Of a stretch of DNA of 64,000 nt, positions 1,285 to 40,186 are shown piece after piece. Source of the DNA: a bacterium (GTDB lineage: Bacteria; Desulfobacterota; Deferrisomatia; Deferrisomatales; BM512); contig SCTA01000019.1 in NCBI GenBank assembly GCA_004322275.1, positions 1-64,000 on the forward strand, read 5' to 3'. The first letter of the stretch is position 1; every line of letters starts with the position of its first letter. The position numbers and the translations under genes were made by a program. Under the pieces are notes generated by a model. It made no database searches, was not told where the DNA came from, and saw only the letters and a list, made by a program, of their open reading frames with translations.

Positions 1285-1395
1285 CGTGTCGCGTGCTCGC
1301 TCAAGGGCTCGCCGTAGCGCTGCTACTGCCTCGCCCTCTCGCTGCGCGGCTCCTTGAATCAGGGTCTTCTCGCAACGTTTTTCGATTCCTGCCTC
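1285..1395 (+). repeat. GTAG-core dispersed repeat, copy a
   Basis: This stretch between yhaM and its terminator shares a long run centred on GCCGTAGCGCTGCTACTGCC with bases 24957-25005, and a distal TTCTCGCAACGTTTT with bases 53505-53517. The centre GTAGCGCTGCTAC folds as a short hairpin. It belongs to the family described for 2632-2745. Confidence 0.6.
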
Positions 1396-17405: not shown

Positions 17406-17705
17406 CTAAACCAGAGAATCTATTATCTTTGCGATTTCTGAAGGAGAGAGGTTCCTTACCAGGAGGCGCTTGTTTCTGCCGGTGGAGCCGGAGGCGAGTT
17501 CGACGGAGGTTTTGGGGACTCCGAGGAGTTTGGCGAAAAAACCGGTCAGTTCCTTGTTGGCCTCCCCTTCGACGGGGGGAGCCGAGATCGCTACCGAGAG
17601 AGAATTACCGTGAAGCCCCGCTATCTTCGTCTTCGAGGAGCGGGGCTTCGCCCAGATCTCTATGATGGTTCCGCCGGGGGTCTCGGAAAGGTAGCCTACG
17701 GCCAC
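17406..17705 (-). CDS. yggU: DUF167 / YggU family protein
   Basis: About 99 residues from the proposed GTG (17703-17705) match the DUF167 family: IEIWAKPRSSKTKIAGLHG, ISAPPVEGEANKELTGFFAKLLG and SVELASGSTGRNKRLLV. Function is unknown; members often follow the yggT/divIVA genes as here. An open frame continues upstream to 17912, but its first 65-70 codons lie entirely in a repeat (17705-17932) that also occurs in non-coding DNA at 38922-39150, so they are probably not native. The insertion may have replaced the original start region; the start codon is therefore uncertain. Confidence 0.8.
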   Translation of the reverse strand: MAVGYLSETPGGTIIEIWAKPRSSKTKIAGLHGNSLSVAISAPPVEGEANKELTGFFAKLLGVPKTSVELASGSTGRNKRLLVRNLSPSEIAKIIDSLV

Positions 17706-17932
17706 AGATTGCTGACAAACCTCGTCTTTTCTCCGATTTACTTCGTCAGGCTCGAAAAACGTCCTCGAAATACCTATCGGTATTCCTCCGGTCATTTTTC
17801 TCGCCTTCCTTGTTCTCGAAGAAAATACTGTGTTTGTCGCAATCTCAGTCTGTTGACCTGATGTCCCCTTGTTGTTCTGTTTTCTGTGCAAAAAACTTCT
17901 CTTTCGCCACAAATGACTTTGTCAACAGCCTG
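17705..17932 (+). repeat. MITE-like composite repeat, copy 1
   Basis: This 228-bp unit is roughly 90 percent identical to 38922-39150. It starts CAGATTGCTGACAAA and ends TTTGTCAACAGCCTG, an imperfect terminal inverted repeat (12 of 15). Inside, TTTGTCGCAATCTCAG and CAGTCTGTTGACC look like a second, internal pair of ends, so it may be two small elements joined. It lies between divIVA and yggU and supplies an artificial N-terminal extension to yggU. Confidence 0.8.
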
Positions 17933-24919: not shown

Positions 24920-24954
24920 GCTCCCCGGCGCATCCTTTCCGTCCCCGGCATCGT

Positions 24955-25155
24955 CATGTCCTCGCTCAAGGGCTCGCCGTAGCGCTGCTACTGCCTCGCC
25001 CCTTCGCTGCGGGATTCCTCGCCGGGAACGGAAAACCGCGCCGGAAGCTGTTTTGGCGAAAGACTGCCTGCGACCGCGCGCCCTGCGGCTTGTCCCTCGA
25101 AGCTTGAAAAGCGAAGTGGGAACTCCTTGCCCTTCGCCGAAATAGTTTGCCGGAA
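24955..25155. repeat. GTAG-core dispersed repeats, copy d (two adjacent pieces)
   Basis: Bases 24957-25023 repeat the yhaM-downstream copy (GCCGTAGCGCTGCTACTGCC). Bases 25034-25155, read on the minus strand, repeat the left half of copy c, from CGGCAAACTATTTCGGCGAA to GCGCGGTCGCAGGCAGT, but with a different 30-base insert after AAGGAGT. The two pieces lie back to back downstream of the polyprenyl synthase gene. Confidence 0.65.
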
Positions 25156-38041: not shown

Positions 38042-38878
38042 TTAAATCCCGGCCTGGCGTCGTCTGGCCCAGCCCGAAAGAAGGTTTACAGCCAGCAAAA
38101 GGAGAAAGGAAACCGTCAGCATCGCCACCGCGACCGCCGCCGCTCCGGCGAAGTCGTACTGTTCGAGCTTGGTTATGATGATGAAGGGGGTAATCTCGGT
38201 CTTGAACGGCAGATTCCCCGATATGAAGACCACCGAGCCGTATTCCCCCACGGCGCGCGCGAAGGAGAGGGCGAAGCCGGTGAGGAGGGCGGGCCAGAGG
38301 CCGGGGAAGATTACCCGCCTGAAGGTCTGCCAGCGCGTGGCCCCGAGGGTTGCTGCGGCCTCCTCAAGTTCACCGTCAATATCCTCCAGAACCGGCTGCA
38401 CCGTGCGGACGACGAAGGGAAGGCCGATGAAGGTCAGCGCCACGAAGACGCCTAGCCGGGTGAAGGCCACCTTTAGCCCCAGCGGCTCCAGGTACTGTCC
38501 GATCCAGCCGTTGACGGAAAAGGCTGCGGTGAGGGCGATACCGGCAACAGCGGTGGGTATCGCGAAGGGCAGGTCTACGAGGGCGTCTACCAGCTTCTTG
38601 CCCGGAAAGGAGTAACGCACCAGCACCCAGGCGGTCAAAAGGCCGAAAAAAGCGTTGGCAAGGGCCGCCAGAAGAGAAGCGCCGAAACTCAGCCGGTAGG
38701 AGGCGACGACCCTTGGGTCGGTCACCGTCTCCCAGAAAAATCCCCAGCCGTTTTCCCCCGCCGTGAAAAACACGGAGGAAAGGGGAATCAGGACTATCAG
38801 CCCCAGGTAGAAGACCGTGAAGCCCAGAGCCGGAGTGAAGCCGGGAAGGACGCTGTGGTGTTTCAATATGCTTTTCAT
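38042..38878 (-). CDS. cysT: Sulfate ABC transporter permease CysT
   Basis: The 278-residue permease shows [16 protein letters not shown] and an EAA loop ([24 protein letters not shown]), both characteristic of the sulfate CysT/CysU group. About six hydrophobic segments are present. A repeat insertion (38922-39150) with a duplicated palindrome separates it from sbp, lengthening the intergenic part of the operon to 309 bases. Confidence 0.93.
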
Positions 38879-38897
38879 GATCGCTCGGGTCAGGGTT

Positions 38898-38920
38898 GGG
38901 CGGCCGGAAACCCGGCCGCC
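38898..38920. repeat. Duplicated palindrome, left copy
   Basis: A 23-base sequence, a perfect GGCGGCCGG/CCGGCCGCC hairpin with an AAAC loop, recurs unchanged at 39151-39173. The two copies flank the 229-bp repeat. Confidence 0.9.
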
Positions 38921-38921
38921 T

Positions 38922-39150
38922 CAGATTGCCGACAAACTTCGTCTTTTCTCCGATTTACTTCGTCAGGCTCGGAAAACGATCCTCAAAATACAAGGAGTAT
39001 TCCTCCGGTCATTTTCCTCGCCTTCCTTGTTCTCGAAGAAAATACTGTGTTTGTCGCAATCTCAGTCTGTTGACCTGGTGTCCCCTTGTCGTTCTGTTTT
39101 CTGTGCGCAAAACTTCTCTTTTCGCCATAAATGACTTTGTCAACAGCCTG
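38922..39150 (+). repeat. MITE-like composite repeat, copy 2
   Basis: This 229-bp unit is the second copy of 17705-17932, in the same orientation on the window, about 90 percent identical. It has the same imperfect inverted ends (CAGATTGCCGACAAA; TTTGTCAACAGCCTG). It lies between sbp and cysT, bracketed by a 23-bp duplication that may be its target-site duplication. Confidence 0.85.
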
Positions 39151-39173
39151 GGGCGGCCGGAAACCCGGCCGCC
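39151..39173. repeat. Duplicated palindrome, right copy (sbp downstream hairpin)
   Basis: Identical to 38898-38920. It follows the sbp stop codon on the minus strand and, having no T run, looks like an RNA-stabilising hairpin that lets the binding-protein mRNA accumulate over that of the permeases. Confidence 0.85.
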
Positions 39174-39187
39174 CGCCATAAATCCCG

Positions 39188-40186
39188 TTATTTGCCCGGC
39201 TGATAAATCCGGTCGAAGGTCCCGCCGTCGGAGAAGTGGGTTTTCTGGGCTTTCTGCCAGCCTCCGAAGGTCTCGTCGATGGTGATGAGCCTGACCTTTG
39301 GAAAGCTGGAGGCGTACTTCTGCGCGACCGCTTCCAGCCTCGGGCGGTAGAAGTTCTTGGCCGCTATCTCCTGACCCTCCGGGGTGTAGAGGAATTCAAG
39401 GTAAGCCTTGGCGACCGCTTCGGTCCCGTGCTTTTGGGCTACTTTCTCCACGACGGCCACGGGGGGTTCCGCAAGAATGCTTACCGAGGGGACGACGATC
39501 TCGACCTTTCCCGCGCCGAGTTCCTTCACCGCCAGAAAAGCCTCGTTTTCCCACGCGAGGAGGACATCGCCGATACCGCGTTCCACGAAGGTGGTCGTCG
39601 AACCGCGCGCGCCGGAATCGAGAACGGGCACGTTTTTAAAGAGAGCCGTCACGAACTCCTTCGCCTTCTCATCGCTGCCCCCGGGCAGGCCGAGCGCGTA
39701 CCCCCACGCGGCGAGGTAGTTCCAGCGCGCCCCGCCGGAGGTCTTGGGGTTGGGGGTGATAACGCCCACGCCGGGCTTCACGAGGTCGTCCCAATCCTTA
39801 ATCCCCTTGGGGTTTCCGCTGCGGACAAGGAAAACTATGGTGGAGGTGTAAGGGGAGCTGTTGTTCGGGAGGCGCTTTTGCCAGTCGGCCGGCAGGAGCC
39901 CGGCCTTTTCGGCTATGGCGTCTATGTCGTAGGCAAGGGCGAGGGTTACCACGTCGGCCTCAAGGCCGTCGATGACTCCTCTGGCCTGCTTTCCCGAGCC
40001 GCCGTGGGACTGCTTGACGGTTACCTCTTCGCCCTTCTTTTCCTTCCAGTGTTTCGCGAAGGCGGCGTTGAACTCCTGATAGAGTTCGCGGGTGGGGTCG
40101 TAGGAGACGTTAAGCAGATCGACCCCGGCGTGGGCCGAGGCGGCGAACACAATTCCGGCAAAGAGTGCGGCGATAAACTTTTTCAT
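39188..40186 (-). CDS. sbp: Periplasmic sulfate-binding protein
   Basis: The 332-residue protein has a signal peptide ([20 protein letters not shown]) and matches Sbp/Cys[67 protein letters not shown] and the late [17 protein letters not shown]. Residues of the sulfate pocket (S/G in HGGSGKQ and TSGG) are intact. It precedes cysT in the same direction. Confidence 0.95.

Follow-up and report, generated by a model that had tools for sequence, protein, structure and literature searches.

The sulfate transport locus

The window, meaning the whole analysed stretch of 64,000 nucleotides, contains two neighboring sulfate transport genes: cysT, for a sulfate ABC permease (38042 to 38878, minus strand), and sbp, for a sulfate-binding protein (39188 to 40186, minus strand). 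Both names come from the translations alone, and homologs of sbp were retrieved by protein search. Between the two genes lies a 229-bp repeat (38922 to 39150), bordered by exact copies of the 23-mer GGGCGGCCGGAAACCCGGCCGCC at 38898 to 38920 and 39151 to 39173. A previous, sequence-only reading had described a repeat between exact 23-base palindromes, and the two 23-mers are indeed identical. It had also placed the left hairpin one base away from the repeat. The gap is real, but the duplicated unit is longer by one nucleotide. The right copy (39151 to 39174, no strand assigned) is a perfect 24-nt hairpin, GGGCGGCCGGAAACCCGGCCGCCC, with a 10-bp stem and a 4-nt loop, and the left copy (38898 to 38921, likewise unstranded) ends in T, not C. 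This single substitution of C by T at the final hairpin position accounts for the one-base gap before the element.

Folding of the 276-nt stretch gave a z of -8.66 against shuffled sequences. The flank-duplication score at this site was 22.5, compared with a maximum of 9 among 2,450 swapped-flank controls, and chance is excluded as the source of the duplication. The hairpin was not terminator-like in a simple scan, and the promoter and terminator scans found nothing.

Structure and distribution of the element

The 229-bp repeat is a non-autonomous element (MITE) on the plus strand, with the ends CAGATTGCCGACAAAC and GACTTTGTCAACAGCCTG and the termini CAGATTGC..GACAAA and CTTTGTCAACAGCCTG; its ends were also read as CAGATYGCTGACAAA and CTTTGTCAACAGCCTG. 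Folding divides it into two tandem foldbacks of about 143 and 87 bp. Foldback A (38922 to 39063, plus strand) is imperfect, forms the left half, was delimited by its fold, and has a homologous core in MITEs from other families of the phylum. Foldback B (39064 to 39150, plus strand), delimited by fold and sequence, runs from CAGTCTGTTGACC to CAACAGCCTG. The left terminal repeat (38922 to 38937, plus strand) is of the type CAGATTG-TGACAAAC and resembles the left end of the IS1182-type insertion sequence (IS) L299. The right terminal repeat, CAGGCTGTTGACAAAG (39135 to 39150, minus strand), is shared base for base with L246, an autonomous IS of the IS1182 type, which has it at its end. The right end includes a TTGACA, which might act as part of a promoter.

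Terminator hairpins are the places behind which group IIC introns insert, which lends some appeal to the idea that a group IIC-intron-like or other retroelement inserted here beside a terminator. The region from 38600 to 39500 had no Rfam match at E values up to 1, the class C ribozyme domains of group II introns included. The element has inverted repeats at its termini and has duplicated its target, and the same ends occur on elements with a DDE transposase; we regard a retroelement as extremely improbable.

The genome of origin (G000; 2.88 Mb, 45 contigs) contains 12 matches to the element, eight of them near full length. Besides the copy between sbp and cysT, the window holds one more (17705 to 17932, plus strand), whose flanks share no more than an imperfect repeat of 9 bp, CTACGGCCA/CTCCGGCCA. 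Another direct repeat in the window (1288 to 1354 and 24953 to 25019; 67 nt, 88% identity) is unrelated to the element. The right-end pattern, searched in the same genome with up to three mismatches, retrieved only the known copies and weak single matches. A genome of the same family, G003, holds at least 40 matches and 48 matching pieces (188 first-look candidates, of which 40 were scored), as well as a 304-bp form. No copy was found in G001, from the same genus, or in the plasmid DNA searched with the element.

Further relatives of the element are structurally diverse. Solo right ends beginning with CAGGCTGTTGACAAAG lie just 5' of genes at three places in G003 (L167, contig C43, 4767; L169, contig C22, 1646; L170, contig C70, 24179). 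Foldback MITEs from other families of the phylum (L014 in G028, L015 and L020 in G020, L016 and L021 in G043) share the core CAAGGAAGGCGA..GTATTTCGAGGAT with the element and have different ends, GAGCCTCTTGCAAAA and GAGACTTTTGAAAAA; the end type GAGCCTCTTGCAAAA also borders an IS1182-like transposase locus, L219. Pairing of left and right ends in G003 brought up L166 (C60, 5087 to 6962) as a candidate autonomous copy, with 1.88 kb between element-like ends and differing outer hairpins. This candidate was rejected, as it encodes an FG-GAP-like repeat lipoprotein (by eye) and no transposase; it may be a relative with a passenger gene, or a stretch between two separate elements.

Flanking duplications across copies

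The flanks were surveyed in 50 end-paired copies (eight from G000, 42 from G003), drawn from 64 rows after removal of overlapping entries, those whose ends had over five mismatches, G003 entries without the core, and those with less than 60 bp of flank; a few mis-paired ends remain among the 50, for example on contig C22 of G003. The 2,450 controls were swapped left-right flank pairs, with a maximum score of 9 and a 99.9th percentile of 6.3. The duplication score exceeded the control maximum in 15 of the 50 copies and the 99.9th percentile in 21. By ungapped score, 19 copies had long duplications (at least 12 bp), 11 short ones (5-10 bp), and 20 none or weak ones. Three of these 20 (C80:51553, C87, and C19:21678 with 72 bp, all in G003) turned out to have a long or hairpin duplication once the comparison permitted gaps or longer stretches, and several of the 20 had a hairpin at one side only (by eye).

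The sequence-only reading had taken the paired palindromes for a target-site duplication in which a hairpin was the target, and had proposed to look for duplicated hairpins at other copies. Both points hold up in the genome of origin, where seven of the eight copies, all except the window copy at 17705, carry long duplications (12-30 bp), and most are flanked by duplicated hairpins of their own. The hairpin sequence differs at each copy.

Do the duplications coincide with hairpins? Base pairing between the opposite ends of the duplicated string was assessed in 28 long duplications (19 from G000 and G003, nine from named genomes) against length-matched random segments, and gave p<0.01 in 16 cases and p<0.05 in 20. 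The scored copy paired no better than random at four of the 19 from G000 and G003 (C88:38393, C99:217178, G000:C17:41618, and G000:C31), and in both G000 cases the opposite copy of the duplication is a hairpin. Among the 11 short repeats, three lay inside a hairpin loop at p<0.05 (C36:7104, p=0.007; the window copy at 17705, p=0.020; C80:29836, p=0.032), which weakly supports an occasional duplication of the loop only. At one copy (L084, G003:C99:109462-109690), the hairpins on the two sides have almost identical stems and reverse-complementary loops (TCGC and GCGA), as if one hairpin had flipped; this is a single case.

Uninserted sites in relatives

An uninserted relative had been expected to show a single palindrome, and this expectation was borne out at three other sites, to different degrees; the sbp site itself lacks a clear-cut uninserted counterpart. 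At the L005 site, four relatives keep both flanking genes (ispE and a flavodiiron protein gene, by translation) without the element. The same-genus relative G001 has one hairpin there, GCCGCCCGG-ATTAA-CCGGGCGGC, which resembles the right copy in G000, GCCGCCCGG-GTCGAT-CCGGGCGGC; the left copy in G000 is slightly changed. G002, G003, and G004 each contain a hairpin in this gap, of other sequence (by eye). For the L008 site, a full-length alignment of G001 with G000 is obtained after removal of the element and one copy (by eye), so that the expectation holds in length: the G001 segment has room for one copy only, and is not itself a hairpin. The element (1500 to 1735 of L008; G000:C1:104380-104608) was inserted there in the last codons at the 3' end of a gene, whose natural end is replaced by element-encoded residues and a new stop. 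The third site, L341, is that of an IS1182 element on an IncC plasmid, whose flanks with one hairpin copy were found exactly in plasmid NZ_CP022359.1. For the L003 copy, the search for an empty site found no synteny.

At the sbp site, the only relative syntenic at the DNA level, G008 from the same order, has no element and two GC-rich hairpins of other sequence in the sbp-cysT intergenic region (L099/L303, contig C17), about 25 bp apart. The more distant G037 and G029 have neither element nor hairpins. The two hairpins of G008 are what would be seen if the paired hairpins were REP/BIME-like mobile hairpins, or part of the element, rather than target duplications, and REP sequences elsewhere are, as described in PMC1525189, palindromic and repeated. 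Each copy of the element, however, has a hairpin sequence of its own, and empty sites with one hairpin, once at exactly the predicted junction, refute this explanation at the L005 and L341 sites. Overall we hold it to be very improbable, and continue to treat the paired hairpins as target duplications.

Autonomous IS1182-family relatives

A scan of 84,980 named genomes for TRMCTTTGTCAACAGCCTG yielded 66 stretches: 15 in G003, 12 in Alkalicoccus luteus, and 39 others, which include chance matches. A hairpin followed each of the 12 ends in A. luteus; ten of these hairpins reached or exceeded the 99th percentile of random positions, and the other two had p=0.034; among the 39 others, five reached the 99th percentile. 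Duplications of the same hairpin were found at five of the 12 A. luteus places (elements of 479-736 bp), at a 200-bp Clostridiales element, at a 211-bp Thermincola element, and at L246 and L299, two elements with IS1182-type transposase sequence. The L246 protein matches NF033551 with 435.8 bits (cut-off 270) and the Pfam families DUF772, DDE_Tnp_1_6, and DDE_Tnp_1, and its element, with CAGGCTGTTGACAAAG at the ends, lies between two identical copies of a 23-bp hairpin. L299 has CAGATTGATTACAAAC as left end and CAGGCTGTTGACAAAGTC as right end, the same left/right difference as in the 229-bp element, and an 18-bp hairpin duplication. The 229-bp element thus matches autonomous IS1182 elements in its terminal repeats, since L246 and L299 have the CAGGCTGTTGACAAAG and CAGATTG..ACAAAC ends, and in its target habit, since whole hairpins are duplicated by both.

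Searching with the L246 protein (tblastn, E<=1e-30) retrieved 394 plasmid records, 14 phage records, and also one viral contig. From this clade we examined L246, L299, and L326 to L341, 18 IS loci in all; the plasmid loci were picked by hand among the matches listed, environmental hosts first, with the flanks unseen. Eleven had the same hairpin on both sides, in exact copies of 16-35 bp: L246 (23/23), L299 (18/18), L326 (25/25), L327 (24/24), L328 (22/22), L332 (35/35), L335 (30/30), L336 (24/24), L337 (19/19), L338 (22/22), and L341 (16/16). Four (L329, L330, L334, and L340) had a different hairpin on each side (by eye), a pattern as expected of recombinant copies. The remaining three (L331, L333, and L339) had one recognizable end with an adjoining hairpin (by eye). 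A tree of 22 transposases, from which broken genes such as L328 and L299 are absent, places the hairpin-flanked ones in a single group of 13 with a support of 94/96, with long branches elsewhere.

Outside this group, the distant IS1182 elements L342 to L345 (23-27% identity) have repeats of 4-8 bp. Fifteen other IS1182 loci of the phylum were scanned for ends, which were plausible in five, with repeats of none or 4 bp and no hairpin duplication. These observations bear on a rival explanation, in which the hairpins are pre-existing terminators or intergenic structures, only harmless insertions survive, and ordinary staggered-cut repeats happen to include a hairpin. Most copies are in fact intergenic, and many of the hairpins look terminator-like (by eye). 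However, the duplications end where the hairpins end over lengths of 12 to 35 bp, unlike what a fixed stagger and selection would give, and the more distant IS1182 groups produce 4-8 bp repeats or none, without hairpins. We consider this explanation quite unlikely.

In the search of 59 genomes for the IS1182 family, NF033551 had no match at E<=0.001 in G000 to G004, so that the link between the element and IS1182 rests on the ends and the target habit. Furthermore, no IS seen here has a matching interior, and none of them could have given rise to that of the element by deletion. The lack of such a transposase in G000 to G004, and the recurrence of the element core in MITEs with other ends, would fit a different transposase with similar ends, the likeness to IS1182 being a coincidence. 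We find this unlikely, as one IS1182 clade matches the element in both ends, in the difference between left and right, and in the duplication of the hairpin, and GAGCCTCTTGCAAAA, the second type of end found with the core, sits on the IS1182-like locus L219. The MITE may have outlived its partner transposase, or the partner may be unassembled.

Discussion

The element at the sbp-cysT site is very probably a MITE of an IS1182 clade whose DDE transposase picks hairpins of any sequence and would join the element at the base of the stem, so that the hairpin is duplicated after repair. Direct support comes from the ends in common with autonomous IS1182 elements, the duplications that coincide with hairpins, the empty sites with a single hairpin, and the restriction to one clade. 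In its own genome the element appears orphaned, the IS1182 transposase that would have moved it being absent in our search, and we infer that it was mobilized in trans.

The transposase of this clade would recognize a DNA hairpin regardless of its sequence, and each 3' end of the element would be joined, on a different strand, to a 5' foot of the stem, probably on an extruded cruciform. Gap repair would then copy the whole hairpin, leaving a complete one on each side. We infer a cruciform rather than a single-stranded hairpin as the substrate, as well as this geometry of strand transfer; the sequence cannot discriminate between the two substrates. Because the whole hairpin is duplicated, the length of the duplication equals that of the target hairpin, mostly 12-35 bp. 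With DDE transposases, it is normally the protein that fixes the length of the target duplication, which hardly varies. For the present clade the target hairpin seems to determine it, which points toward direct recognition of cruciforms or hairpins in living cells.

Among the closest described systems is IS1272, an IS1182-family element of Staphylococcus, which also targets hairpins of any sequence, often terminators. As described in PMC5678879 and PMC4923244, IS1272 deletes its target hairpin wholly or partly and makes no duplication, whereas the hairpin of our element is kept and duplicated. An IS1272-type replacement of the stem-loop was therefore rejected: the hairpin is present on both sides, and empty sites have one. 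The presumed parents are the autonomous IS1182 elements with the ends CAG..TG..GACAAA (for example annotated ISEfa7; L246 and L326 to L341), which have the same ends and duplicate whole hairpins. They carry a transposase gene, whereas the window element has none and a two-foldback interior. Other elements of the same transposase family have short repeats, of 4 bp in ISPse1 (PMC3281130) and ISCaa15 (PMC3196728), in whose accessible descriptions no hairpin duplication was seen, and of about 8 bp in ISCfr1, at L344, again with no hairpin duplication seen.

The sequence-only reading had seen a likeness to elements that insert into REP sequences. Palindromic targets are indeed common to both, but ISPsy8, ISPa11, ISRm22, and others insert inside a specific REP hairpin with repeats of 0-6 bp, according to the accessible text of PMC1525189. 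This likeness was not upheld, and identity with such elements was rejected, as our element has a different target at each copy and duplicates it in full. The Chunjie MITE of Geobacter uraniireducens (235 bp; PMC10969869) is of similar size, also intergenic, and found in an operon; the two are likened here by description alone. A further class of hairpin-related mobile DNA is the REPIN/RAYT system, which consists of REP sequences with their tetranucleotide and a Y1 transposase.

The targeting of palindromes by IS1182 elements is already in print. The main IS reviews of 2014/2015 reportedly put the repeats of IS1182 elements at 0-60 bp and note palindromes as targets, and part of the hairpin-duplication habit may be known to IS curators. 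In the open-access literature searched, with those reviews outside it, duplication of the whole hairpin as the rule of a clade was absent, and was encountered only as a hypothetical branch in the accessible parts of PMC5678879. That study (2017) proposed a cruciform model with deletion for IS1272, and its Fig 13 legend draws duplication of the whole stem-loop (pathway b) and of the loop (pathway c) as possible outcomes.

It is fairly likely that the clade as a whole, found here in Bacillota, Fusobacteriota, and Pseudomonadota plasmids, and via MITEs in deltaproteobacteria, reads secondary structure rather than sequence, joins at the two feet of the hairpin, and leaves a duplication of variable length that equals the hairpin. 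If true, the clade would realize the whole-stem-loop branch that was drawn hypothetically for IS1272, and the loop-only duplications at G003:C36:7104 and G003:C80:29836 would represent the third branch. Deletion by IS1272 and duplication by this clade, within one family, would offer a testable case for how the architecture of a transposase determines which of the strand feet are joined. For annotation, palindromic repeats of 16-35 bp around an IS1182 element or MITE could be read as its original target. The complete hairpin left on either side may also explain why insertions inside operons, such as the one between sbp and cysT, are tolerated.
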